A program made the translations under genes and the position numbers. Below are positions 2,483 through 23,920 of a stretch of DNA of 25,232 nucleotides, piece by piece. The first letter of the stretch is position 1. Each line of letters starts with the position of its first letter. The stretch is from positions 1 through 25,232 of the IMG/VR virus record IMGVR_UViG_3300025138_004750; one strand, given 5' to 3'. The notes beneath the pieces were generated by a model, which was not told the origin of the DNA, did no database searches, and was given only the letters and a program-made list of their open reading frames with translations. Origin of the DNA: a virus.

Positions 2483-2616
2483 TGAATAAAAGATTATTAA
2501 AATTATATCTTATATTTTATTGGAATAGAATTAAATATATTTTTATTAAACCGAAGAGATCAAAAAGTGTTAGTTTCATTTATGAAAATGATCTAGATAA
2601 AAAAGATGATAGTTAA
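2482..2616 (+). CDS. small basic hydrophobic peptide, unknown
   Basis: A 44-codon frame starts on ATG 2482, sharing one base with the stop of gene 46 (TAATG), and ends at TAA 2614-2616, overlapping the radical SAM gene by 11 bases. It fills what would otherwise be a 123-base gap in a tightly packed operon. The N-terminal half is aromatic and hydrophobic with scattered Lys/Arg (LLKLYLIFYWNRIKYIFI), which could be an amphipathic or membrane-touching helix. The C-terminal half is charged and ends in KKDDS. No family is recognisable. The coupled start and exact fit support a real gene, but I see no other proof. Confidence 0.45.
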   Translation: MNKRLLKLYLIFYWNRIKYIFIKPKRSKSVSFIYENDLDKKDDS

Positions 2617-3259
2617 ACAACTTGATATTGCAATTACTAATCTATGTAACGCTAGATGTCCACAATGCGATAGAACAGATAAAAATAATATTACAAAGAC
2701 GTATGATTATATACCATTAACACAATGGTCGTTTGAAGATTTTAAAAATAAATTTCCAATAGAAACACTTAACGATGTAGAAGAATATAGTTTTTGTGGT
2801 ACATGGGGTGACCCTATGATGTGTAAAGATATTCAAAAGATCGTACAATATATTATTGATAACTCAAAATCAAACGTATCAATCACAACAAATGGTAGTA
2901 TTCGTAACGAAGAGTTTTATTGGAACATAGGTGTTCTTTGTGGTAAAAGACTTTCTATTGTATTTGATATTGACGGAATAAATGAAGACATGCATCAAAA
3001 ATATAGAAGAGGTGCATCATTAAAAAGGTGTTTGGCAAATATGAGTACATTATCAGAAACACAATCAATTGTATTATCTCAAACAATATTATTCAAACAT
3101 AATCAAGATTACATAGAAGAAATAAAAAAACTAGTAAAGGATAATGGTTCTTCTAATCATGTTTTTTATAGATCAGATAGATTTGAAAATGATGAAGGCA
3201 TATTTACTTTTACAAATGAACAAGGTAAAATAGAACACTTAGAAAGAGCTGATGCCTAA
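2606..3259 (+). CDS. radical SAM protein, core domain
   Basis: The 217-residue product has the radical SAM cluster motif CNARCPQC (C14-x3-C18-x2-C21), which binds the [4Fe-4S] cluster that cleaves SAM. It is followed by SFCGTWGDPMM, in the place of the GGEP motif, and by SITTNGS, typical of the barrel strands. It ends at 3259, where SPASM-type relatives would continue into a cysteine-rich C-terminal domain. Here that domain is in the next frame (3252-3575), overlapping by eight bases. The enzyme probably works with that second polypeptide, and the ferredoxin at 7400 could supply electrons. The substrate is unknown; SPASM relatives act on peptides and small molecules. Confidence 0.85.
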   Translation: MIVKQLDIAITNLCNARCPQCDRTDKNNITKTYDYIPLTQWSFEDFKNKFPIETLNDVEEYSFCGTWGDPMMCKDIQKIVQYIIDNSKSNVSITTNGSIRNEEFYWNIGVLCGKRLSIVFDIDGINEDMHQKYRRGASLKRCLANMSTLSETQSIVLSQTILFKHNQDYIEEIKKLVKDNGSSNHVFYRSDRFENDEGIFTFTNEQGKIEHLERADA

Positions 3260-3575
3260 AATAGATTGTAAATTTTTAAATCATAAAACAAAAACAATGG
3301 TTCAAACAGATGGGTCAGTTTGGCCTTGTTGTTATTTGGGTACTTATAATTGGCGTGAAGATAAAAAAGTTACAGATCAAAATTTGTTTAAAGAATATAG
3401 AAAGACTAAAGACAAACAAAATTTAAATAATCATTCGTTAAAAGAAATATTAAATAGTGAGTGGTTTACTAAAACATTACCAGAGTCTTGGAAAGATGAA
3501 AAGACTTGTGCCAGACAATGCAAATTTTGGTGTACTCAAGGACACGATCCAGCAGAATTAAGGATTAAAAAATGA
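3252..3575 (+). CDS. SPASM-like iron-sulfur domain protein (partner or detached C-terminus of the radical SAM protein)
   Basis: This 107-residue protein reads like the C-terminal auxiliary domain of SPASM radical SAM enzymes. It has C6, then VQTDGSVWPCCYLG with C26 and C27, and a late cluster C86-x3-C90-x3-C94 (CARQCKFWC). The TDGSVWPCC segment is the hallmark: these domains usually show D-G-x-V-x-x-C before extra Fe-S ligands. The ATG at 3252 sits inside the last codons of the radical SAM frame, one base forward (+1), so it is either translated by coupled reinitiation or is a fused gene broken by a frameshift. Its stop overlaps the carbamoyltransferase start (ATGA), so it is still kept in the operon. 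Confidence 0.7.
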   Translation: MPKIDCKFLNHKTKTMVQTDGSVWPCCYLGTYNWREDKKVTDQNLFKEYRKTKDKQNLNNHSLKEILNSEWFTKTLPESWKDEKTCARQCKFWCTQGHDPAELRIKK

Positions 3576-4912
3576 AACAAACTAATTTAGGTATATCAGA
3601 AGGGTTTCATGATGCGTCTGTAACACACCTTTACGGACAAAATATAATATCAGCTTCACACGCAGAAAGATATAGTGGAATTAAAAATGATCGATGGGTA
3701 CATAAAGATCAATTAGCAAAGACACCTTATTATGATAACATGGCATTTTATGAAAATTACTTTTGGAAAAATACTAGAAATTTTTGGAGTGGTCAACCTA
3801 GAGTAAAGTATAAAAGAAAATATTCACACATATTTAAACATCACGAAACTCATGCAGCTGCAGGTTATTATACTTCTAAGTTTAATACTTGTAATGTAAT
3901 TGTTATTGACTCCATAGGTGAATGGGATACAGTTTCTATATGGGAGTGTAATGGTGACAAGATGAAAAAAATCAAGTCATGGAAGTATCCATATTCACTT
4001 GGTTTATTATATTCTGCAATTACACAAAGACTTGGTTATAAACCAAACGAAGAAGAATATATTGTAATGGGTATGGCTGCATACGGAGTACCTAAGTTAG
4101 ATTTAGAACCTTTACTTTACAAAAACAATCACAAAGGTTGTGGTCAAATATTTCCTAATGAACATCCATATGATATTGCAGCTAGTATGCAAAATCTATA
4201 TGAAACAAAACTATTACAATTATTAAAATATACTACATCTAAAAATCTTGTTATCATGGGTGGGTGTGCTTTAAACTGTGTAGCAAATAGTAAGATACCA
4301 GAAAGATTTAATATTTGGATTATGCCAAATCCTGGCGATGCAGGTTCTAGTCTTGGTGCAGCTGCTTTAATAGAAAAGAAGAAGTTAAAATGGAAACACC
4401 CATACTTAGGTCATAACATTTCTAATAAGATCAATCCAAAAGAAGTTGTTAAACATATATTGAAACATGGATATTGTGGTGTTGCAAACGGAAGAGCAGA
4501 GTTTGGCCCAAGAGCATTAGGAAACAGATCACTACTTGCTGATCCTAGATTAGATATTAAAGATACAGTTAATACTATTAAACGTAGAGAAAAGTTTAGA
4601 CCATTTGCTCCAGCGATACTTGAAGAGTTTGCACCAGAATACTTTGAAGGTCGTATGAATAGATACATGCAATTTACAGCAAAGGCAATGCATGATTATA
4701 AATCAGTTACACACGTTGATGGTAGTGCCAGAGTACAATTAGTTGAAATTAGTTGTGTATCTGTTATCAGAGATATTCTAGAAGAGTTTTACGAACAAAC
4801 AGGTTGTCCTATGTTATTGAATACAAGTTTAAATATAAAAGGAAAACCAATGGTTAATACATGGCATGATGCTATGGAGTTTGAAAAGTTATACAATGTC
4901 AAAGTATTTTAA
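3572..4912 (+). CDS. carbamoyltransferase (NodU/CmcH/TobZ family)
   Basis: The 446-residue protein carries the family's conserved blocks in order: GFHDAS at 11-16, HHETHAAAGYY at 90-100, GGCALNCVANS at 230-240, GRAEFGPRALGNRS at 307-320, REKFRPFAPA at 339-348, HVDGSARVQ at 381-389, and LLNTSLNIKGKPMVNT at 415-430. In this family the C-terminal YrdC-like part makes carbamoyl-adenylate from carbamoyl phosphate and ATP, and the N-terminal Kae1-like part transfers the carbamoyl group to a hydroxyl. Phage members have been shown to carbamoylate 5-hydroxymethylcytosine in DNA, but no hydroxymethylase is visible here. It is coupled to the SPASM-like gene by ATGA and followed after 9 bases by an SGNH-like gene. 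Family call firm; acceptor unknown. Confidence 0.9.
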   Translation: MKQTNLGISEGFHDASVTHLYGQNIISASHAERYSGIKNDRWVHKDQLAKTPYYDNMAFYENYFWKNTRNFWSGQPRVKYKRKYSHIFKHHETHAAAGYYTSKFNTCNVIVIDSIGEWDTVSIWECNGDKMKKIKSWKYPYSLGLLYSAITQRLGYKPNEEEYIVMGMAAYGVPKLDLEPLLYKNNHKGCGQIFPNEHPYDIAASMQNLYETKLLQLLKYTTSKNLVIMGGCALNCVANSKIPERFNIWIMPNPGDAGSSLGAAALIEKKKLKWKHPYLGHNISNKINPKEVVKHILKHGYCGVANGRAEFGPRALGNRSLLADPRLDIKDTVNTIKRREKFRPFAPAILEEFAPEYFEGRMNRYMQFTAKAMHDYKSVTHVDGSARVQLVEISCVSVIRDILEEFYEQTGCPMLLNTSLNIKGKPMVNTWHDAMEFEKLYNVKVF

Positions 4913-4921
4913 GGTTATAAT

Positions 4922-5569
4922 ATGATAATAGTAGCAGGCGACAGCAATCACGATCCAAAATATTCTGGTTACAGAAAAAATAATATTACTGTTTGGACAG
5001 ATAAGTTAAATGTTAAAGTAGATAATATTGCTGAGTCAGGTGTGGGGAATGATGTTATATGTGACAATACACTAAAAGCAATAAGAGAGCATGATTACAA
5101 AGTTGATCATGTATATGTGTTTTGGTCAGATTGGTATAGAGTTTACAAAGAACAAAATAGAAATCATGATGTTGAGGCTTACCGTAAATGGCAAACTGAT
5201 ATAGTGCATGGCAGACTTAATGCTGATCTAGAAACACTTATTAATCTAAATCTAAAAACATTCTACACGCTACAAACAGCATTAAAAGAGTCTAATATAG
5301 ATTACACTTTTTATCAAGAATTAAACCCCCTACCAATGATAGAGTATGAACAAGAAATGTTTGCCACTAAATTTATTTTTAATCATCCTTTATTTGATTT
5401 CATCGATAAAGATAGATTTTGGGGTTGGCCTATACTAAGATTTATAGGTGGCAAGAATTTATATGATAGTGTAAAATTAGATGATCTAACAGATACAGAT
5501 AGTCACTATGGTCAAAAGACTCATGACCATTACGCAGAATTTATTATACAAAAAGGTATGGACTTATGA
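4922..5569 (+). CDS. SGNH/GDSL-like hydrolase family protein (paralogue of 7723-8562)
   Basis: The 215-residue protein opens with VAGDSN, matching the GDS nucleophile block (Ser8). It continues with ESGVGND, a G-x-G-N block, and ends with DTDSHYG (Asp193, His195), a plausible Asp-x-His catalytic pair. The protein at 7723 shares the same plan, including V-x-WS-x-W-x-R in the middle and a GWPI...GG-x-N segment, so the two are probably paralogues. SGNH enzymes remove or transfer acyl groups on sugars, lipids or small molecules. It starts 9 bases after the carbamoyltransferase and its stop overlaps the amidinotransferase start (ATGA). No signal peptide is seen, so it should act in the cytoplasm. 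Substrate unknown. Confidence 0.6.
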   Translation: MIIVAGDSNHDPKYSGYRKNNITVWTDKLNVKVDNIAESGVGNDVICDNTLKAIREHDYKVDHVYVFWSDWYRVYKEQNRNHDVEAYRKWQTDIVHGRLNADLETLINLNLKTFYTLQTALKESNIDYTFYQELNPLPMIEYEQEMFATKFIFNHPLFDFIDKDRFWGWPILRFIGGKNLYDSVKLDDLTDTDSHYGQKTHDHYAEFIIQKGMDL

Positions 5570-6840
5570 TAACAAAGAAAAAATATTCTAAGGTTAATAG
5601 TTGGACACATTTTGATCCATTAAAACAAGTTGTAATTGGAAACATTTACGATCCTAAGTTTTTTGATGATCTACCAGATACTAGTATAAGAGATAGTATT
5701 CAGAAAGTTATGTATGAAACTATTGAAGACTTAGATATTATAAAGAAAAAACTTATAGATTTAGGTGTAGAAGTTATTCAAACAGATTCTAAATGGACAC
5801 AAAACGGAAACATTTTAAAAGAAAACTCTTTTATGGAATGGCAAGAGAATAATCCAAATGGTTCATTACCCAAACCAATGATTAATCCTAGAGACAATTA
5901 TATAACAATGGGTGATGAGATATTTCTAACAGACGGATTTTCTCTACATTGTAAAGAAACAGGTGAACACCCATTAGATATGTTTGATTGTAATATTACT
6001 CTATGTAAAGATATGTTTAGTAATTATGTGTTAAATAAAATTCATGATGTACCAACAATGCTTGGACCATTCACGCCACAACTAGAAGGTCAATTTGAAG
6101 ACGGGGTTCCTAATTCATGGGAGCCATCGTGGGATGTTCAAGAATATTTTGAAGCAAATATAAAAAAGCATCCTATTGAGTTTAGCAAATTTCTTTGGTC
6201 AACATGGCAAATGTCAGCTGCATCATTAACAAGACTTGGTGATAAGTTAATTGTTGATGAAGTTGACAAGTCAGGTTTCTTTGATTGGTATACTAAACAA
6301 CGACCAGACACCAAGTACAAAAAAGCAACATGTGCTATTGGTGGCCATACTGATGGTAGTATGTGTTTAGTTAGACCTGGGTTGATTATAGGATCGCCGT
6401 GGATGAAAGAAGATTTCTTTAATAAAACTTTTCCTGGTTGGGATTGTATGATTATAAATGATCCAAATGATTTTGCATCTACAAAAGATTATGCGAAATT
6501 AGTAGAAGATCAATATAATAGAAAAATTAAAAAGAAAGAAAGAATTAATTGGTTTGTAAAAGAAAAAATGCATGACCATAAGTTTGTTAAGTTTGTAGAT
6601 CAATGGTTATATGATTGGGTTGGTATGCAAGATGAAACATTATTTGAAGTTAATATGTTAAGTCTAGATGAAAAGAATATACTAACATTAAACTATCAAA
6701 CAGAAGTACATGATAAATTAAAATCAGCAAACGTAAATCCAATATACGTTCCTTTTAGACATAAAAGATTTTGGGATAGTGGATTACATTGTTTAACATT
6801 AGATACATACAGAGAAGGTGAGTGTCGTGAAATTAATTGA
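5566..6840 (+). CDS. amidinotransferase-family protein (glycine/inosamine amidinotransferase superfamily)
   Basis: The 424-residue protein has the hallmarks of Arg:Gly and inosamine-phosphate amidinotransferases. Near the N-terminus is DPLKQVVIGN. Mid-protein is NPRDNYITMGDEIFLTDG. GGHTDGS follows with His261 and Asp263, and FWDSGLHCLTLDTYREG carries the expected nucleophile Cys409. These enzymes move an amidino group from arginine to an amine through a Cys-amidino intermediate. By eye, the active-site Asp of the family's FDAAD segment (Asp254 in human AGAT) falls on SAAS here (Ser217/Ser220), so the donor or acceptor chemistry may differ. It is coupled by ATGA to the SGNH gene and overlaps the next gene. 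A hydrolase role within the same superfamily is possible. Confidence 0.8.
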   Translation: MITKKKYSKVNSWTHFDPLKQVVIGNIYDPKFFDDLPDTSIRDSIQKVMYETIEDLDIIKKKLIDLGVEVIQTDSKWTQNGNILKENSFMEWQENNPNGSLPKPMINPRDNYITMGDEIFLTDGFSLHCKETGEHPLDMFDCNITLCKDMFSNYVLNKIHDVPTMLGPFTPQLEGQFEDGVPNSWEPSWDVQEYFEANIKKHPIEFSKFLWSTWQMSAASLTRLGDKLIVDEVDKSGFFDWYTKQRPDTKYKKATCAIGGHTDGSMCLVRPGLIIGSPWMKEDFFNKTFPGWDCMIINDPNDFASTKDYAKLVEDQYNRKIKKKERINWFVKEKMHDHKFVKFVDQWLYDWVGMQDETLFEVNMLSLDEKNILTLNYQTEVHDKLKSANVNPIYVPFRHKRFWDSGLHCLTLDTYREGECREIN

Positions 6841-7393
6841 GTTTTGTAAAACATATCATAATGCAGCTACACCAGAATTATGCGAAGAGTTAATTCAATG
6901 GTTTGAAAGCGCTGGTGCAAAAACAGTAAGAGCAAATAGAGACACTAGACAAGATATACAAAAGTGGGTTGATCCTATTACTGATCAGTTGTTATATGAT
7001 AAAATAGAAACTATTAAAAGAGAAACATTAAATTCTTATCTAGCAGATTATCCTTTTGTTTATAGAGGAAACAGAAAACTAGTATCAGAAGAAACTAAAA
7101 TACAAAGAACTGATCCTAAAGGTGGTGGATTTCATAACTTTCATGCTGAGGTATCTCATTATAAAAACATTAGAAGATGTTTGGCGTGGACGATTTATTT
7201 AAACGATATACCAGACGAAGAAGGTGAAACAGAATTTTTATATGAAAAGTTAAGAATACAACCACAAAAAGGTATGATGGCTATATTCCCAGCATCTTTT
7301 GCTTGGGCTCATAGAGGCAATCCTGTACATACAGAATCAAAATACATATCAACAGGTTGGTGGTTATATCCAAAAGAAGGTAAACAAGATTAA
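6827..7393 (+). CDS. 2-oxoglutarate/Fe(II) oxygenase, phage prolyl-hydroxylase-like
   Basis: The product is 188 residues from GTG 6827. The iron ligands appear as FHNFHAE (His106, Glu108; an H-x-E form of the usual H-x-D) and WAHRGN (His162). LAWTIYLND and GETEFLY mark the double-stranded beta-helix core, and KYISTGWW carries the basic residue that holds 2-oxoglutarate. I chose GTG 6827 over GTG 6818 because AGAAGG at 6813-6818 then lies 8 bases upstream, whereas it abuts the earlier GTG. The gene overlaps the amidinotransferase by 14 bases and precedes the ferredoxin by 6. It would hydroxylate a product of this cassette or a protein side chain; nothing in the sequence decides which. Confidence 0.75.
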   Translation: MKLIEFCKTYHNAATPELCEELIQWFESAGAKTVRANRDTRQDIQKWVDPITDQLLYDKIETIKRETLNSYLADYPFVYRGNRKLVSEETKIQRTDPKGGGFHNFHAEVSHYKNIRRCLAWTIYLNDIPDEEGETEFLYEKLRIQPQKGMMAIFPASFAWAHRGNPVHTESKYISTGWWLYPKEGKQD

Positions 7394-7399
7394 AACTAA

Positions 7400-7726
7400 A
7401 TGACTTATATTGTAAACGACAATTGTATTAAATGTAAACTAATGGACTGTGTTGAAGTTTGTCCTGTCGATTGTTTTTATGAAGGTAAAAATATGCTTGT
7501 AATTAACCCCGATGAGTGTATCGATTGTGGCGTTTGTGAACCAGAGTGCCCTGTTGATGCTATTGTTAGTGATGCAGAATCTGGTATAGAAAAGTGGTTA
7601 GAAGTAAATGACAAGTACAGTCAGATATGGCCAAGAATAACAGAAAAAAAAGAACCACCTTTAGATTCAGAAAAATATAAAAATGAAGAAAATAAATATG
7701 AAAAATATTTTAAGGAAAATCTATGA
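7400..7726 (+). CDS. fdxA: seven-iron ferredoxin (FdxA type)
   Basis: This 108-residue protein closely resembles Azotobacter ferredoxin I. All nine cysteines of that protein are present with identical spacing: C9, C12, C17, C21, C25, C40, C43, C46 and C50. By homology C9/C17/C50 bind the [3Fe-4S] cluster and C21/C40/C43/C46 the [4Fe-4S] cluster. Distinctive stretches include [13 protein letters not shown] and [14 protein letters not shown], and the tail keeps [10 protein letters not shown]. It is a cytoplasmic electron carrier. In this cassette it could reduce the radical SAM enzyme or another redox step, though it might also serve host metabolism. It begins 6 bases after the oxygenase and its stop overlaps the next start (ATGA). 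Confidence 0.9.
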
Positions 7727-14347: not shown

Positions 14348-15283
14348 ATGGAAACATTTTTATGGGTCGAAAAGTATCGACCATCTAAAGTAGAAGATTG
14401 TATTCTTCCGTCCAAACTAAAAAACACATTTCAAGAGTTTGTTGACACAGGTCACATTCCAAATTTAATATTATCTGGTAGTGCTGGAACTGGCAAAACT
14501 ACTATTGCAAAAGCAATGGTGGAACAGATCGGTAGTACATGGATGATTATAAATGGATCAGAAGAATCTGGTATTGATGTATTAAGAACTAAGATTAAAA
14601 ACTTTGCATCAACTGTTTCATTAGAAGGTGGACGTAAGTACATTATTCTAGATGAGGCAGATTATCTAAATCCTCAATCTACTCAACCTGCGTTGCGTGG
14701 TTTCATGGAAGAGTTTCATAAGAACTGTGGATTCATTCTTACATGTAATTACAAAAACAGATTAATAGAACCTTTACAATCAAGATGTTCTAATATTGAT
14801 TTCCAAATCAAGAATGGTGAACGTATTAAACTTGCAGAAGCTTTCTTTAAAAGAACGCAAACTATTCTTGCCGATGAAAAAATTAAGTTTGAACCTAAAG
14901 CTGTTGCTGAATTAATCAATTCATATTTTCCCGATTGGCGAAGAACTTTAAATGAACTACAAAGGTATTCTGTATCTGGTCAAATAGATGCTGGTATTCT
15001 TTTAGATATTGGAAGTGCAAATATTAAAGAGTTGGTATCTCATCTTAAGAAGAAAGAATTTACCAATGTTCGTAAATGGATTGTAAATAATCTAGATAAC
15101 GATCCTAGCAGGGTGTATAGAACGATCTATGATAGTCTTTATGACAATGTAGACCCAAGTACAATACCACACGCTGTGGTCATCTTATCAGACTATCAAT
15201 ACAAGTCAGCATTCGTAGCAGATCAAGAAATTAATATGCTTGCGTGTATGACAGAAATCATGAGTCAGGTGAAATTCAAATGA
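14348..15283 (+). CDS. 44: gp44-like clamp loader large subunit (AAA+ ATPase)
   Basis: The 311-residue AAA+ protein starts with LWVEKYRPSKVEDC, the usual opening of clamp-loader ATPases. Walker A is SGSAGTGKT (43-51), Walker B ILDEAD (around Asp102-Asp105), and the SRC motif is at 145-147 with its arginine finger. Four gp44 subunits with one gp62 open the gp45 ring and load it at primer ends. The C-terminal third is the helical collar. Its stop overlaps the next gene's start (ATGA), so a 2OG oxygenase is inserted between 44 and 62, which are adjacent in T4. Confidence 0.95.
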   Translation: METFLWVEKYRPSKVEDCILPSKLKNTFQEFVDTGHIPNLILSGSAGTGKTTIAKAMVEQIGSTWMIINGSEESGIDVLRTKIKNFASTVSLEGGRKYIILDEADYLNPQSTQPALRGFMEEFHKNCGFILTCNYKNRLIEPLQSRCSNIDFQIKNGERIKLAEAFFKRTQTILADEKIKFEPKAVAELINSYFPDWRRTLNELQRYSVSGQIDAGILLDIGSANIKELVSHLKKKEFTNVRKWIVNNLDNDPSRVYRTIYDSLYDNVDPSTIPHAVVILSDYQYKSAFVADQEINMLACMTEIMSQVKFK

Positions 15284-15801
15284 TAATCTGTAAAGATAAT
15301 TTTTTAGAACATCATCTTGCACAATTGATTGATGGGTCTGTACACAATACAGACTTTAATTGGCATTGGCATTATAAAGCAAACAAGAACGAACCAGATA
15401 GACATTGGCATACATTGGCAGGTCATAATATAGAAGAAATGACAGCAAATGGTCTTGATTATCTTATTCCTTTATGGGAAGGTATCGAAAACTTGCCAGA
15501 TGTTCCTAAAACAAAAATCATTAGAGCATATTTTAACGCACATACACCAGGTGTAGAACCATCTATTCATCAAGACGATGGCGAGATAACATATATTTAC
15601 TATCCTAATATGGATTGGAATATCAATTATGGTGGTGGAACAACAGTTTATGATGATGATCTAGTAAAAGGTACTTTACTTAATTACAAAGGCAATAGAC
15701 TAATTGGATTTACTGCTAAGAACCATCATCAAGCAATGCCAGTAAGCAAGAAGTGTTTTATGTTAAGAACATGCGTGGTGTTTAAAACAAAGAAAGTATA
15801 A
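15280..15801 (+). CDS. 2-oxoglutarate/Fe(II) oxygenase
   Basis: 173 residues from ATG 15280, which overlaps the gp44 stop (ATGA) and has AGGTG about 9 bases upstream; longer frames start inside gp44 without support. The fold markers are IHQDDG (His97, Asp99) for the first two iron ligands, GGGTTVY in the core, KNHHQAMPV (His149 or His150) for the third ligand, and Arg163 for 2-oxoglutarate. An unusual His/Trp-rich stretch (NWHWHYK...DRHWH) lies at 27-44. It is placed between clamp loader subunits, so it is made with the replisome; the substrate could be a protein side chain or a base, with no direct evidence for either. Confidence 0.75.
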   Translation: MIICKDNFLEHHLAQLIDGSVHNTDFNWHWHYKANKNEPDRHWHTLAGHNIEEMTANGLDYLIPLWEGIENLPDVPKTKIIRAYFNAHTPGVEPSIHQDDGEITYIYYPNMDWNINYGGGTTVYDDDLVKGTLLNYKGNRLIGFTAKNHHQAMPVSKKCFMLRTCVVFKTKKV

Positions 15802-16624: not shown

Positions 16625-19099
16625 ATGAGGTTTTATACGAACATTGTGCCGTGGGGTAATTCATTACTCTTGCGTGAGGTAGTCAATGGAGAACGAGTTG
16701 CTAGAAAAATTAAGTACTCGCCAACTCTCTATTGCCCTGTTATGCGTGAGACTAAGTTTCAAACGCTAGACGGAAAATACGTTACACCAGTAAAACATCA
16801 AACAATCAAAGAAGCCAAAGAGTGGGTTGAAGCATATAAAAATCAACCACACTTAGTATATGGTAATACACAATTTCAATATTCATTTTTAAATGAAGAA
16901 TACAATACAGACTTTGACAAAGATCAAATTCTAATTACTACAATCGATATAGAAGTCGCTTGTGAGAATGGGTTTCCTAACCCCGATGTAGCAGAAGAAG
17001 AAATGCTATCAATTACATTAAAAAATCAATCAAACAAAGAGATTATTGTATTTGGTTTACACGAATATAAAACAAACAGAAAAGATGTAACTTATATCAA
17101 ATGTAATAGTGAAAAAGATTTACTATACGATTTTCTAAACTTCTGGTGTTCTAATTACCCCGATATTATTACTGGTTGGAATACAGAGTTTTTTGATATT
17201 CCATATCTAGTTAATAGAATTAAAAAGGTCTTAGGCGAAGATGATGCTAAAAGATTATCACCTTGGAAATCTGTACATTCAAAAGATGTATATCAAATGG
17301 GTAGAACTCAAATGGTATATGACATTCAAGGTATTGCAGCTTTAGATTACTTTGACCTTTATAGAAAATTTACATACACCAATCAAGAAAGTTATAGACT
17401 AGATCATATTGCTAGTGTTGAACTTGGTGTAAAAAAAGATGAAAACCCACACGATACATTTAGAGATTGGTACACAAACGATTATCAATCATTCATCGAT
17501 TACAATATTAAAGATGTAGAAATTGTTGATGCATTAGAAGACAAGATGAAACTAATTGAACTATGTTTAACTATGGCATATGAAGCCAAAGTAAATTATA
17601 CAGATGTTCTTGGTTCGGTTAAGTATTGGGATATTCTAATACACAATTACTTAATGAGTAAAGGTGTTGTTATACCACAGAAAAAATCATCATCTAAAGA
17701 TAGTAAGTATATGGGTGCATATGTTAAAGACCCTCAAGTCGGTATGCACAAATGGGTATTATCTTTTGACTTAAACTCTTTGTATCCACACTTAATTATG
17801 CAATATAATATATCACCAGAAACAATGAAGTCTGAACAAACGGTACCTGGTATGACAATTGATAAACTTTTAAACCAAGAAGTTGATACATCACCACTTG
17901 GTGATAACGTAACGATGACTCCTAATGGTGCATTATTCAATACAAAGAAACAAGGATTCCTACCAGAGATTATGCAGACCATGTATAATGATCGTGTAAA
18001 ATACAAACGTTATATGTTGGATGCAAAACAACAATATGTAAATACAAAAGACCCAAAATTTGTTAAACAGATATCAAAGTTTGATAATATTCAAATGGCA
18101 AAAAAGATATCTCTTAACTCAGCTTATGGTGCGATTGGAAACAATTGGTTTAGATATTATTCAAACACAATGGCAGAGGCAATCACTTCTTCTGGTCAGT
18201 TATCTATTCGTTGGATTGAAAAAAAGATTAATGAATTTATGAATGATTTGCTTAAAACAAAAGATAAAGATTATGTAATTGCTTCTGATACAGATTCAGT
18301 TTACATTACATTCGATACATTGGTAGAAAAGTTTCAACCAAAAAACCCTGTGGACTTTCTTGATACAATTGCAAAAGAAAAGATTGAACCTTTTATTGAT
18401 ACATCATACAAAGAACTTGCAGAGTATTTAAATGCATATGATCAAAAGATGCAGATGAAACGAGAAGTTATCGCAGACAAAGGTATATGGACAGCAAAGA
18501 AAAGATATATTCTAAATGCGTGGGATGTTGAAGGTGTTCGATACAAAGAACCTGAACTTAAGATTATGGGGATTGAGGCAGTTAAATCATCCACACCAGC
18601 TGCATGTAGAGATAAGATCAAGGAAGCATTACATATTTTGATGTCTGGTACTGAAAAAGAAATGAACACATTTATACAAACGTTTAGAGAAGAGTTTATG
18701 AACTTACCACCTGAACTAGTTGCGTATCCTAGAAGTGTAAATGGTTTATCTAAATGGACAGAATCACATTCACTATTTAAGAAAGGTGCCCCTATACATG
18801 TTAAGGGTGCAATACTTTACAATCATTTAATAGAAAAGAATAAATTACAAAGTCGTTATCCTTATATTCAAGAAGGTGATAAAATTAAGTTTCTTTATAT
18901 GAAATTACCAAACATATATCAATCTTCTTCTATTGCATTTATGACAAAACTTCCAAAACAATTAAACTTTGCAATTGACTATGAACTACAATTCGAAAAG
19001 TCTTTTGTTGAACCACTAAACTATATCATTGAAAAAATCAATTGGAATGTTGATAGATCATATGGTACTGCTGGAAACCTAGAGGATTTCTTTGTATGA
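16625..19099 (+). CDS. 43: DNA polymerase gp43 (family B)
   Basis: The 824-residue family-B polymerase has the proofreading exonuclease site TIDIEVA (Asp108, Glu110). Its palm motifs are FDLNSLYP (motif A, Asp382), KISLNSAYG (motif B, Tyr501) and ASDTDS (motif C, Asp555 and Asp557). It is shorter than T4 gp43 (898), as in many marine T4-like phages. All catalytic residues appear intact. The start ATG follows GAAGG at 16613-16617 with a 7-base gap. Its stop overlaps the next gene (ATGA), so the modification genes behind it are translationally coupled to the replicative polymerase. Confidence 0.97.
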   Translation: MRFYTNIVPWGNSLLLREVVNGERVARKIKYSPTLYCPVMRETKFQTLDGKYVTPVKHQTIKEAKEWVEAYKNQPHLVYGNTQFQYSFLNEEYNTDFDKDQILITTIDIEVACENGFPNPDVAEEEMLSITLKNQSNKEIIVFGLHEYKTNRKDVTYIKCNSEKDLLYDFLNFWCSNYPDIITGWNTEFFDIPYLVNRIKKVLGEDDAKRLSPWKSVHSKDVYQMGRTQMVYDIQGIAALDYFDLYRKFTYTNQESYRLDHIASVELGVKKDENPHDTFRDWYTNDYQSFIDYNIKDVEIVDALEDKMKLIELCLTMAYEAKVNYTDVLGSVKYWDILIHNYLMSKGVVIPQKKSSSKDSKYMGAYVKDPQVGMHKWVLSFDLNSLYPHLIMQYNISPETMKSEQTVPGMTIDKLLNQEVDTSPLGDNVTMTPNGALFNTKKQGFLPEIMQTMYNDRVKYKRYMLDAKQQYVNTKDPKFVKQISKFDNIQMAKKISLNSAYGAIGNNWFRYYSNTMAEAITSSGQLSIRWIEKKINEFMNDLLKTKDKDYVIASDTDSVYITFDTLVEKFQPKNPVDFLDTIAKEKIEPFIDTSYKELAEYLNAYDQKMQMKREVIADKGIWTAKKRYILNAWDVEGVRYKEPELKIMGIEAVKSSTPAACRDKIKEALHILMSGTEKEMNTFIQTFREEFMNLPPELVAYPRSVNGLSKWTESHSLFKKGAPIHVKGAILYNHLIEKNKLQSRYPYIQEGDKIKFLYMKLPNIYQSSSIAFMTKLPKQLNFAIDYELQFEKSFVEPLNYIIEKINWNVDRSYGTAGNLEDFFV

Positions 19100-19911
19100 T
19101 AGATAAACTGCTAGTTGAACATATAGATAAAACTGTAAAAGATGATTATGTTGCAGTATTATTATCTGGTGGAATTGACAGTATATCAGTAGGTTTAGCA
19201 GCTCAAGAGTGTGGAAAAAAGATCAATGCATACTCTTTTTGCCTTGACAATCAGGTCAGTTATGATTATAATAAGGCTAAAGAGATTGCAATTAAAAACG
19301 GCTGGGGATTCGTTGGAACTGTAATTGATACGAGCAAACTAGAGGAAGACTTTTACAAACTAGTAAACTTAGGATGTGTAAAGAAAACTCATTATGAATG
19401 TGTGTATCCTTTTATGTACGTCTACCCAAAGATTGCAGAAACGTATGTTCTATCTGGTTGGGCTGCAGATGGTTATTATGGAGTGAGTAAAAAAGCAAAT
19501 ATCCATTACAAACATACAAAAGAAAAGTTTGATGAATTTAGAGATAACTATTTCTTGCCCGAGAATACTGCTGGATACAACTGGCACAAAAAAATTGCAG
19601 ATAAGTATAATAAAGTTTTTGTTACACCTTATCTAACAAAGGAAGTGAAAGATTATTTTTATAGTATGGATTGGTATCAATTAAATCAACCTTATCAAAA
19701 GCATCATGTTAGAACTGCTTTTAATATTGGTAAAGATGTTAAGAAACATTTAAACTTACAATTAGATTCTGGTGTCAACTTACTATTTGAAAGACTGCTA
19801 AATAATACTGAAATTAATTACAAAGGTAGAACAAGAGTAATGGATTTAGTAAGAGATTGGCCGAAACAAAAACAAACTGTACCTGCAAACTTGGAGGCAT
19901 TTATATTATGA
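19096..19911 (+). CDS. asparagine-synthetase-like (AS-B domain) ATP-dependent amide-forming enzyme
   Basis: This 271-residue protein is an ATP-pyrophosphatase of the asparagine synthetase C-terminal type. The PP-loop is LLSGGIDS (22-29), and VLSGWAADGYYG (118-129) corresponds to the AsnB SG-x-x-x-D-x-x-x-G block. AsnB relatives adenylate a carboxylate and join it to ammonia or an amine. The glutaminase domain (N-terminal Cys) is absent, so it needs free ammonia, a separate amidotransferase or another amine. It is coupled to gp43 by ATGA, and its 3' end overlaps the cytosine methyltransferase by 4 bases. That context suggests the carboxylate is on a modified base. A QueC-like or tRNA-modifying role is the main alternative. 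Confidence 0.75.
   Translation: MIDKLLVEHIDKTVKDDYVAVLLSGGIDSISVGLAAQECGKKINAYSFCLDNQVSYDYNKAKEIAIKNGWGFVGTVIDTSKLEEDFYKLVNLGCVKKTHYECVYPFMYVYPKIAETYVLSGWAADGYYGVSKKANIHYKHTKEKFDEFRDNYFLPENTAGYNWHKKIADKYNKVFVTPYLTKEVKDYFYSMDWYQLNQPYQKHHVRTAFNIGKDVKKHLNLQLDSGVNLLFERLLNNTEINYKGRTRVMDLVRDWPKQKQTVPANLEAFIL
19244..19272 (+). promoter_or_regulatory. perfect-consensus sigma70 promoter inside the AsnB-like gene
   Basis: TTGACA (19244-19249), a spacer of exactly 17 bases, then TATAAT (19267-19272). Both hexamers match consensus at all positions. It would start transcription near 19279 and express the cytosine methyltransferase, CmoA-like, MazG-like and uvsX genes independently of the polymerase operon. 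Confidence 0.65.
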
Positions 19912-21044
19912 AGTACAAACCATATCTAATGAAAGACGTTTATGCTGGAGAAGCATTAGAAAAATTTAGAGTAATATCTACTTTCGCTGGTGGTGGTGGA
20001 TCATCAACAGGTTACAGACTTGCTGGTGGTAAGATACTTGCAATCAATGAATTTGTTGAAGAGGCAAGAAATACTTACAGAGATAATTATCCAAACACAC
20101 CTATACTTGATGGTGATATAAAAGATTTAAAAGGAGAAGACTTTCTAAAACTTACAGGTTTAAAAGAAGGCGAACTAGATTTATTAGATGGTAGTCCACC
20201 TTGTTCAGCATTTAGTATGTGTGGTACTCTTGCAAGAGAGGGAACTGTACATAGTGATGGGTTTGGAAAAACTAAACAATATTCAGATGGCAAAACAGTA
20301 ACTAACATTGAAGATTTATTCTTTGAGTTTTTAAGAGTTGCTAATGTTATCAGACCAAAAACTATTATTGCAGAGAACGTTGAAGGTCTAACAGTTGGAG
20401 AAGCAAAACAATACTTCAACAAAATACAAAATACATTTGAGGACATTGGATATCAAGTAGTTGCAAAAGTACATGATTGTTCTCTATTTGGTGTTCCACA
20501 AAGAAGACGTAGAGTTTTCTTCATGGGAGTAAGAGACGATATTATGGATCAAGTTGGTTTAAACTTTATGACATTATCATCTTTGTTTCCTACACCAAAC
20601 AATACAATAACAACTTTACAGGGTGCATTTGACGGATTAGAGTATGATCAAGAAGAACTTGAAATGCTTACTACTAAATGGAAAGAAACAGCATACTATA
20701 AACAAACGTGTACATTGATGCCAAGAAATCCAGCAAAGGTTATTACAGGAACAGATTATCATCCTAAAGGATGGCATTTCAATCTTAAGATTGCTTCAGA
20801 ATTTCAACCAAGTCCTACTATTACAGCAATGGGTGCAACAGAAAAAACTGCTGGTGTTTGTCATTGGAATGATGATAGAAAATTTACTTTGGGTGAATTA
20901 AAAAGAGTGACATCATTACCTGATGATTTTAAATTGACAGGGAAGTGGTCACAAAAAAGTGAACGTTGTGGTCGTATGGTTCCTAGTTTAATGATGGCTC
21001 ATCTTGCAGACTCGATGTATAAAAAAGTTTTAAAAAATATATGA
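19908..21044 (+). CDS. C5-cytosine DNA methyltransferase with Arg in motif X
   Basis: 378 residues from ATG 19908, which has GGAGG (19893-19897) 10 bases upstream. Motif I is TFAGGGGSSTGY (25-36), motif IV GSPPCSAF with nucleophile Cys99, motif VI ENVEG (156-160) and motif VIII QRRRRV (198-203), so the enzyme should be active on cytosine C5. The target-recognition region is short. Motif X reads CGRMVP where family members read GNAVP or GNSV: the conserved Asn is Arg356. Substituting Lys at this position is known to let C5 methyltransferases use carboxy-SAM, giving 5-carboxymethylcytosine. A CmoA-family gene follows. Plain 5-methylcytosine remains the alternative product. Confidence 0.9.
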   Translation: MKYKPYLMKDVYAGEALEKFRVISTFAGGGGSSTGYRLAGGKILAINEFVEEARNTYRDNYPNTPILDGDIKDLKGEDFLKLTGLKEGELDLLDGSPPCSAFSMCGTLAREGTVHSDGFGKTKQYSDGKTVTNIEDLFFEFLRVANVIRPKTIIAENVEGLTVGEAKQYFNKIQNTFEDIGYQVVAKVHDCSLFGVPQRRRRVFFMGVRDDIMDQVGLNFMTLSSLFPTPNNTITTLQGAFDGLEYDQEELEMLTTKWKETAYYKQTCTLMPRNPAKVITGTDYHPKGWHFNLKIASEFQPSPTITAMGATEKTAGVCHWNDDRKFTLGELKRVTSLPDDFKLTGKWSQKSERCGRMVPSLMMAHLADSMYKKVLKNI

Positions 21045-21267: not shown

Positions 21268-21959
21268 TGGCTGATTTTACTTTTGCACATAGAGAAGAAG
21301 GTTTTGATAATCACATAGATAAAAGTATTCGTGGGTATCAAGATTTACTAACCGATGTAGTTTCATTGTCTAGATACTTTATTGAAAGTCATACCAACGT
21401 TTATGATGTTGGTTGTTCAACAGGTAAACTAACAGAAGCATTAATTAAAAAGAATAAGGATATTGAAGATGTATATTACCACGGTATAGAAGTTGCTGAC
21501 GGATTTGTTGGTGATATGAAACATAGAGGTAATCTTTTAAAACAAGAATATCCTAAACAAAAAATTCAATTCCTACATGAAGATGTAAGAGACTCTACAA
21601 TGTCTAATGCATCATTAATTACTTCAATATTTACTTTACAGTTTATGTCAATGAAAGATAGAGCACCAATGATTAAAAAGATTTATGATGGTTTAAATGA
21701 AGGTGGTGCGTTTGTCTTTGCAGAAAAAACTATATGTGAGAATGCTAAGTTTCAAGAAATGATTACTTTTAACTTCTATGATTACAAACGAAAGTATTTT
21801 ACTACCGAAGATATTATGGACAAAGAACAAGTGTTAAGAAATATTATGAAACCTAATACTTGGAAACAAATAGAACAATACATGTATGATGCAGGTTTCA
21901 AAGATGTACAACCATTCTGGCGTAATCATATGTTTGTAGGAGCAGTAGCAGTAAAATGA
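21267..21959 (+). CDS. CmoA-family SAM-dependent enzyme (carboxy-SAM synthase-like)
   Basis: The 230 residues align along most of E. coli CmoA: FTFAHREEGFDNHI at the start, SIRGYQDL, VYDVGCSTG (GCS at 49-51), FTLQF, KIYDGLNEGGAFVFAEK, and a C-terminal DAGF...VAVK. CmoA converts SAM plus prephenate to carboxy-SAM, which CmoB uses on tRNA uridine-34. Two SAM/carboxy-SAM contacts differ by manual alignment: Asn132 becomes Ile121 and Arg199 becomes Glu187, although Arg191 lies one helical turn later. It may therefore make carboxy-SAM with a shifted arginine, make a different SAM analogue, or be an ordinary methyltransferase. No CmoB homologue is visible, but a C5-cytosine methyltransferase is two tiny genes upstream. 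Confidence 0.8.
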   Translation: MADFTFAHREEGFDNHIDKSIRGYQDLLTDVVSLSRYFIESHTNVYDVGCSTGKLTEALIKKNKDIEDVYYHGIEVADGFVGDMKHRGNLLKQEYPKQKIQFLHEDVRDSTMSNASLITSIFTLQFMSMKDRAPMIKKIYDGLNEGGAFVFAEKTICENAKFQEMITFNFYDYKRKYFTTEDIMDKEQVLRNIMKPNTWKQIEQYMYDAGFKDVQPFWRNHMFVGAVAVK

Positions 21960-22342
21960 GCAACTTTAAAAAAGTAGAAAAGTTTATGAAAGCGTATGAT
22001 CAAGAAGTTTTAACTACGCCACAATTACCAACATTTGAATTAGCAGAATTAAGAACTGAATTAATTAAGGAAGAATTTACCGAACTTATTACAGCAATAA
22101 ATAAGTTTGATCTGGTAGAGATAGCAGATGCATTGACAGATATCCTATACGTCACCTATGGAGCTGGACATGCAATGGGCATCGATCTTGATAAATGTTT
22201 TAAAGAAGTACACACTTCTAACATGAGCAAGATGGGTAAAGACGGCAAACCAGTAAAAGGCCCTAGTGGAAAAGTAATGAAAGGTGAAAACTATAAAGAA
22301 CCCAATTTAAACAAGGTTCTATTTGGAGATAATAATGAGTGA
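21956..22342 (+). CDS. MazG-like nucleotide pyrophosphohydrolase
   Basis: The 128-residue protein carries the all-alpha NTP-pyrophosphatase pattern: [13 protein letters not shown] (E-E-x-x-E metal ligands) then [19 protein letters not shown] (E-x-x-D-x-x-x-D helix). The tail [13 protein letters not shown] after [17 protein letters not shown] is typical of phage and phosphoribosyl-ATP pyrophosphohydrolase-like members. It would hydrolyse an NTP or dNTP to the monophosphate plus pyrophosphate. That could clean the nucleotide pool, remove an unwanted dNTP or adjust alarmone signalling; the sequence does not decide. It is coupled by ATGA to the CmoA-like gene, and its last 8 bases overlap uvsX. 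Confidence 0.8.
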
Positions 22343-23366
22343 TTTTTTAAAAGATATAATTAAGAGTACGGGCAATGAATATGCTAATCTAGTATCAGAT
22401 GGTGTCGAGTCTGGTGATGTAGAGAACTTTATCGATACAGGAAGTTACATGATGAATGCAATCTTATCAGGTTCTATTCATGGTGGATTGGCAGGTAATA
22501 AAATTACTGCATTGGCAGGTGAATCTGCAACAGGTAAAACATTTTTCTTAATGGGAATGTGTAAACATTTCTTAGATCAGAACCCAGAGGGTGGTGTTAT
22601 ATTTTTTGAATCAGAAAGTGCGATTACTAAAAATATGGTAGAAACTAGAGGAATTGATTCTAAGAGAATGGTTATAATGCCAGTTGCAACTGTACAAGAA
22701 TTTAGAACTCAAGCATTAAAAGTTTTAGAAACATATCAACAAACACCAGAGGCAAATCGTAAACCAATGTTTATGTGTTTAGATTCTCTTGGTATGTTAT
22801 CAACTACAAAAGAAGTAGAAGATACTGCTGAGGGTAAAGAGACTAGAGACATGACAAGAGCTCAAGTCTTGAAAGCTGCATTTAGAGTATTAACATTAAA
22901 ACTTGGTAAAGCAAAAGTACCAATGGTTGTTACTAATCATACTTATGATGTAGTTGGATCGTATATACCTATGAAAGAAATGGGTGGTGGAAGTGGATTA
23001 AAATATGCAGCTTCTTCTATTGTATATCTTTCTAAGAAAAAAGAAAAAGACGGAACAGAGGTCGTAGGTAATATTATAAAGATTAAGAATCAGAAATCTA
23101 GATTGACAAAAGAAAACTCTATGTGTGAAGTTAGACTTACATACGATAAAGGTCTTGACAGATACTATGGTCTATTATCACTTGCAGAGAAATATAATAT
23201 CTTCAAGAAAGTATCTACAAAATACGAACTACCAGATGGCAAGAAATTTTTTGGTAAAACAATTAATGATAACCCCGAAACATACTTTACAGAAGAGGTT
23301 CTAGAAAAACTAGACATCGCTGCAAAGAAAGAATTTATGTATGGAAATGAAGAGGAAAGTGAATAA
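22335..23366 (+). CDS. uvsX: UvsX, RecA-like recombinase
   Basis: 343 residues from ATG 22335, with GGAG at 22325-22328 giving a 6-base spacing; a TTG at 22323 would add four residues. Walker A is GESATGKT (62-69) and the Walker B strand is FMCLDSLG (Asp150). [21 protein letters not shown] matches the L2 DNA-binding loop region and YLSKKKEK the following strand. UvsX coats single-stranded DNA and drives strand exchange for recombination-dependent replication, working with gp46/47 resection. It overlaps the MazG-like gene and its stop overlaps the next start (TAATG). Confidence 0.95.
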
Positions 23367-23920
23367 TGGAAAAAGATAATCTAATAAGAGTATTTCCCAA
23401 AGCGTTTAGTGAAGAACTATGCGATAGGTTAGTTAAAAAGTATGAGGACTCTCTTGACAAAGACAAACAAAGACATGGTGCTGGACGTATGAATTTCACA
23501 CAACTAAATCTTAGAGAAGCAGGTTGGGAAAAAGAACAAGCTGAACTTGTACAAATATATGTTGAACATGCTAAGAAGTATGCATCTTCTGTGGGTATCA
23601 CAAACGAATGGCCAATGAAATATGCATTGGAAGACCTTAGATTAAAAAAATATTTACCTAATGATCATGATGAGTTTGGACCTCATGTGGATGTAGGTGA
23701 TAATAAAAACTGTACAAGATTTATGGTTTTCTTTGTTTATCTAGATGATAATGAAGAAGGTGGTACCGTATTTCCAAAATTAAACTTTCATGCTAAATGC
23801 AAGAAAGGTGACATGTTAATGTTTCCGCCTATGTGGACACACTTACATGCTGGGTTAAAACCAAAAGACAAACCGAAGTATATGATAGGAAGTTATTTAC
23901 ATTACGTTGGCGACATTTAA
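23366..23920 (+). CDS. 2-oxoglutarate/Fe(II) oxygenase, prolyl 4-hydroxylase-like
   Basis: The 184-residue protein has the full iron triad: FGPHVDVGD (His107, Asp109) and THLHAGLKP (His161), with Lys171 in KPKYMIGSYLHY positioned for 2-oxoglutarate. RFMVFFVYLDD and EEGGTVFPKL are typical prolyl-4-hydroxylase core strands. This is the most canonical of the three 2OG oxygenases in the window. It lies between uvsX (TAATG overlap) and a small gene before 41, in the stretch where T4 has gene 40. The substrate is unknown; protein prolyl or another side-chain hydroxylation is the default inference. Confidence 0.85.
   Translation: MEKDNLIRVFPKAFSEELCDRLVKKYEDSLDKDKQRHGAGRMNFTQLNLREAGWEKEQAELVQIYVEHAKKYASSVGITNEWPMKYALEDLRLKKYLPNDHDEFGPHVDVGDNKNCTRFMVFFVYLDDNEEGGTVFPKLNFHAKCKKGDMLMFPPMWTHLHAGLKPKDKPKYMIGSYLHYVGDI

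Follow-up and report, generated by a model that had tools for sequence, protein, structure and literature searches.

A probable CmoA-CmoX-CmoY-type cytosine hypermodification module with an exchangeable ligase gene in an uncultured marine T4-like phage

Our combined findings indicate that an uncultured marine T4-like phage carries a further member of the published CmoA-CmoX-CmoY system. The module is found in a 25-kb virus record (IMG/VR IMGVR_UViG_3300025138_004750; 25,232 nucleotides, the whole of which is referred to here as the window), surrounded by a T4-like phage replication region with polB, UvsX/RecA, clamp loader and helicase genes (Table 1). Judging from the sequence and by analogy with the characterized system, it is highly probable that the three genes form a phage DNA hypermodification module, in which CmoA would provide carboxy-SAM, CmoX would use it to form 5-carboxymethylcytosine and a CmoY-like ligase would convert this base to an amide. 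This reading is based on gene content, gene order, homology and residue conservation in the window, and on enzymatic steps that were all established by others for Synechococcus phage S-B43. The natural system itself is thus already published; what is new here is the association between a single residue of CmoX and the presence of CmoA, and the exchange of the ligase gene as a cassette. Together they extend the newly found carboxymethylcytosine/amide hypermodification to a group of uncultured marine T4-like phages.

Table 1 Features of the predicted hypermodification module and its flanking genes in the window.
Feature	Position	Strand	Evidence
DNA polymerase B (polB), upstream in the same gene run	16625..19099	+	PF00136
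cmoY-like, predicted AMP-forming amide ligase (synthetase half of asparagine synthetase), 271 aa, PP-loop SGGIDS	19096..19911	+	PF00733 E 7e-10; 47% identity to SpCmoY
cmoX, predicted DNA cytosine-C5 carboxymethyltransferase (C5-MTase fold), 378 aa	19908..21044	+	PF00145 E 2e-50; PDB 8YF3 E 5e-143
Motif IV SPPC with catalytic Cys99	20193..20204	+	Equivalent to SpCmoX Cys98
Motif X GRMVP; Arg356 codon 20973-20975	20970..20984	+	Direct reading; equivalent to SpCmoX Arg350 and M.HhaI Asn304
cmoA, carboxy-S-adenosyl-L-methionine synthase homologue, 230 aa	21267..21959	+	TIGR00740 E 1.1e-36; 56% identity to S-B43 CmoA
MazG-like pyrophosphohydrolase, overlaps cmoA stop	21956..22342	+	PF01503 E 9e-23

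The original prediction drew attention to an arginine in place of the usual asparagine in motif X of CmoX, and was exact in every detail. Read directly from the ORF that begins with the ATG at 19908, motif X is GGT CGT ATG GTT CCT, with CGT as codon 356, and alignment to M.HhaI pairs Arg356 with the asparagine of GNSV (Asn304). The gene had also been described as not decaying, and indeed the protein is intact: the C5-DNA-methylase family spans residues 20-371, and SPPC (96-99, including Cys99), ENV (156-158) and PQRRRR are all kept. A decayed-gene reading is ruled out by this intact, conserved ORF and its motifs. Since the arginine is invariant among relatives down to 44% identity, and GRMVP is present in 76 of the 83 loci read (most others being truncated or divergent), this conservation argues that Arg356 is neither a chance substitution nor a sequencing error. 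An AlphaFold2 model of CmoX built from a 12-sequence alignment (pLDDT 39.6, pTM 0.43) was too poor for an arginine-cofactor distance.

Yang et al. (Nat Commun, December 2025; PMC12783734) proved biochemically that S-B43 encodes CmoA, CmoX and CmoY, with carboxy-SAM, 5-carboxymethylcytosine and its glycine amide as the respective products, and reported 5-glycylcarboxymethyl-dC in S-B43 virion DNA. In their crystal structure of SpCmoX with carboxy-SAM (8YF3), Arg350, the counterpart of HhaI Asn304, contacts the carboxymethyl group; the wild-type enzyme accepted only carboxy-SAM (Cx-SAM), and an R350N mutant accepted neither SAM nor Cx-SAM (PMC12783734). The window CmoX is about 60% identical to SpCmoX (225/371; 59.5% against the phage record), and 8YF3 matches its residues 5-377. 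All six named residues are kept, with F26, E48, F49 and D70 matching the Cx-SAM adenosine pocket of SpCmoX (F25, E47, F48, D69), and C99 and R356 matching C98 and R350.

The proposal that this enzyme uses carboxy-SAM is therefore backed both by the structure of a protein with about 60% identity and by the neighboring cmoA gene, and we consider such use very likely in this virus. The cmoA and cmoY neighbors, which were absent from the original prediction, are the strongest evidence for it. The laboratory parallel that had been invoked, an asparagine-to-lysine change, stands in that both place a positive charge at this position, but a natural arginine family had already been published in December 2025 (PMC12783734). 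In the engineered carboxymethyltransferase M.MpeI N374K, a positive charge at the motif X asparagine likewise gives Cx-SAM use; that enzyme, however, is a laboratory mutant with lysine and a CG target, whereas the window has a natural arginine and its own cofactor synthase (PMC12783734). Because SpCmoX R350N took neither cofactor, an R356N change in the window CmoX would, by analogy, probably not restore a methyltransferase.

We sought to determine whether the motif X residue predicts CmoA. This is the reverse of the approach in PMC12783734, in which sequences were picked by the arginine. We compared 197 loci that encode a matching enzyme: 82 had arginine at motif X, and 77 of these carried CmoA in the same locus, compared to none of the 115 non-arginine loci (81 leucine, 24 asparagine, 3 methionine, and 7 truncated, misaligned or odd); many loci in this count are closely related, such that it overstates independence. 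Of the five arginine loci lacking CmoA, two are on contigs that end just past the gene, one is on a 5.4-kb contig, one is from an Erwinia phage that has CmoA elsewhere in its genome, and one is unexplained. A search seeded with the asparagine-type enzyme of Aphanizomenon phage CL131 provides a cleaner part of this test: CmoA was found in 0 of 15 asparagine loci and in 2 of 3 arginine loci. The named phages follow the same pattern, with arginine and CmoA occurring together in S-B43, S-CRM01, PaBG, TurkishDelight, Mcat8 and the Erwinia phage, and asparagine, methionine and leucine types occurring without CmoA. The 197-locus count thus tests, by association, whether the motif X arginine marks carboxy-SAM use.

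These findings bear on the possibility that CmoX is an ordinary SAM-dependent C5-methyltransferase in which the asparagine-to-arginine change is neutral or structural. All of the remaining C5-MTase motifs are intact, as such an enzyme would have them, and the leucine or methionine at motif X of other phage C5-MTases lacking CmoA means that asparagine is not strictly required. However, the arginine is invariant across the family and tracks the presence of CmoA, and wild-type SpCmoX took Cx-SAM only. We thus regard an ordinary methyltransferase as very improbable, and carboxymethylation with carboxy-SAM as the preferred reading.

Separately, the CmoX homologue of the Erwinia phage, pEa_SNUABM_5 (locus L087, 2666-4768), is split by an intein with Hint and Intein_splicing domains. 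The insertion point lies immediately ahead of the catalytic SPPC cysteine, and this cysteine would take the +1 extein position.

The cmoA gene starts 222 bases downstream of cmoX. TIGR00740 is by far the best named family for its product, with 126.7 bits, which is below the curated cut-off of 193.3 (NCBIfam); the CmoA homologues of phages PaBG, TurkishDelight and Mcat8 likewise score under it. The protein is similar over its full length to the experimentally active SpCmoA, and is matched by CmoA-family crystal structures with E values of 4e-26 to 2e-28, those of E. coli CmoA being at ~1e-28. Arg199 of E. coli CmoA is replaced by glutamate in the aligned phage proteins, the active SpCmoA among them; this and the sub-threshold score count against the preferred reading. 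The segments of the E. coli sequence used here match those in the 4GEK alignment.

CmoA could instead serve wobble modification (cmo5U) of phage or host tRNA, with the adjoining methyltransferase and ligase being unrelated to it. E. coli CmoA works in the cmo5U pathway, and the PHROGs label of the CmoA family is tRNA methyltransferase. The CmoA homologue and carboxy-SAM are indeed what the module has in common with the CmoA/CmoB pathway of Gram-negative bacteria, yet the transferase in the window is a C5-DNA-MTase rather than CmoB, and its likely substrate is DNA cytosine. Furthermore, no tRNA genes were found in the window, and CmoA adjoins arginine-type C5-MTases in unrelated phages of Synechococcus, Pseudomonas, Streptomyces and Moraxella, the Erwinia phage being the one with CmoA at a distance. 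A role in tRNA modification is therefore scarcely credible, and we retain DNA hypermodification as the function of the module.

In this module, CmoA would convert host SAM and prephenate to carboxy-SAM. CmoX would take this cofactor in place of SAM and bind its additional carboxylate through Arg356. It would then place the carboxymethyl group onto cytosine C5 of phage DNA after replication, by the usual covalent mechanism through Cys99. The CmoY-like ligase would adenylate the carboxylate and couple it to what is probably a small amine such as glycine, and the amide-modified DNA would be masked from host restriction. Since DNA treated with SpCmoX resists HhaI (PMC12783734), restriction evasion is, by analogy, the likely purpose.

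S-B43 and the window agree in having the three genes, with cmoY adjacent to cmoX, and in the catalytic cysteine and the residues that bind the cofactor, among them the motif X arginine. They differ in that cmoA is upstream in S-B43 and downstream in the window, where the module sits between polB and mazG/uvsX in another marine T4-like phage, and in the lower identity of both the ligase (47%) and the DNA-recognition region of CmoX (36/88 identical, 41%). Because of this low identity in the recognition region, a GC target for the window CmoX is uncertain. GC dinucleotides showed no marked depletion in the window as a sign of a target motif (odds 0.91), which is not informative.

The cmoY-like gene overlaps both polB and cmoX by 4 bases. 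An AlphaFold2 model of its product (pLDDT 86) matches beta-lactam synthetase, carbapenam synthetase and asparagine synthetase, and the protein is thus a predicted AMP-forming amide ligase with an asparagine-synthetase fold and no glutaminase domain. Amide ligation by this virus is likely, and that the amine is glycine has an about even or slightly better chance. The carboxymethyl group could also be made but joined to something else, be it ammonia, an amino acid other than glycine or some further amine, a variant of the last step only that is compatible with the rest and to which we assign somewhat less than an even chance. The limited identity to SpCmoY and the wholesale exchange of the gene among relatives (see below) speak for it, and PMC12783734 itself leaves open the amine of other clusters. 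Against it, the window ligase, with 271 aa and no glutaminase domain, belongs with the compact SpCmoY-like enzymes and has their invariant residues. Many class-specific residues differ among ligase types, with none attributable to an amine pocket. In some members of one type (L023, 4564-5382; L038, 9180-9998) the PP-loop reads GGGADS rather than SGGxDS, and ADSHYV replaces ADGxYG; such ligases may lack activity or carry out a changed reaction.

We surveyed the gene between polB and cmoX in 78 IMG/VR relatives. Six or more CmoY-like types occur in this slot; in other relatives it holds a 468-aa glutamine-hydrolysing asparagine synthetase or a ParB-like protein, or is empty. The CmoY-like types are 39-62% identical to each other, except for one at only 21-25%. 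In the relatives L063 and L065, polB, CmoX and CmoA proteins are 97%, 99% and 99% identical, respectively, whereas their ligases are 40% identical. At the DNA level, these two contigs match at 97-100% along almost the whole of cmoX and cmoA but at 50-66% in the ligase gene, and the change sets in at the cmoY-cmoX junction. Similarly, between the window and L023, identity is about 80-96% in polB, falls to 52-62% in cmoY and returns to mostly 83-97% for cmoX. These sequence comparisons show that the ligase gene is swapped as a cassette between otherwise near-identical viruses, out of step with its neighbors. The main text of PMC12783734 reports ligase diversity and does not report cassette exchange.

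The ligase is thus the part that evolution exchanges, which suggests that these phages keep the carboxymethyl handle and vary the final amide. Recombination of an interchangeable ligase, with CmoX and CmoA near unchanged, could give close relatives chemically different bases and thus act as a switch of modification type, similar to antigenic variation, against host restriction; we put this forward tentatively, at a little below even probability. Near-isogenic loci of this kind could be used to look for new amide-modified bases and to test whether the swap evades restriction by the host. Some relatives also have differing, unnamed ORFs between polB and the ligase (L063, 3046-4032; L065, 6886-8340; L059, 3584-4681). 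Two such ORFs, in L060 and L065, resemble GIY-YIG-type nucleases by eye, the one in L065 having no Pfam match; nucleases of this kind could drive ligase exchange.

The closest cultured relative of the window polB is that of Methylophilales phage Melnitz (64% identity), in which a homologous C5-MTase (39%) also adjoins polB. The Melnitz enzyme differs in having GLMV at motif X, and the locus in having no CmoA and a Tet_JBP-family dioxygenase directly downstream (L005, 3866-6050), such that its handle is probably oxidised 5mC. It looks like a parallel cytosine hypermodification locus in the same place beside polB. Melnitz-type C5-MTases form a large marine phage family (L120-L199) with leucine at motif X, GLMV in 80/80 loci and no CmoA.

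Additional enzymes are encoded elsewhere in the window. An amidinotransferase-like protein (5566-6840) has weak matches to HsvA and SxtG, and its relative in phage S-SCSM2R is annotated as a glycine amidinotransferase. Such genes lie directly upstream of polB in many relatives; we do not claim them as a further modifying step, since they are near polB and not cmoX. At 2606-3575, two ORFs that lie in different frames and overlap by 8 bases encode a radical SAM protein and a SPASM domain, as would result if a frameshift or an assembly error had broken up a single gene. A Nol-like carbamoyltransferase (PHROG 1601) is found at 3572-4912 and, in the same stretch, a 2OG-Fe(II) oxygenase (6818-7393) and a ferredoxin (7400-7726), with more 2OG-oxygenase-like genes at 15244-15801 and 23366-23920.
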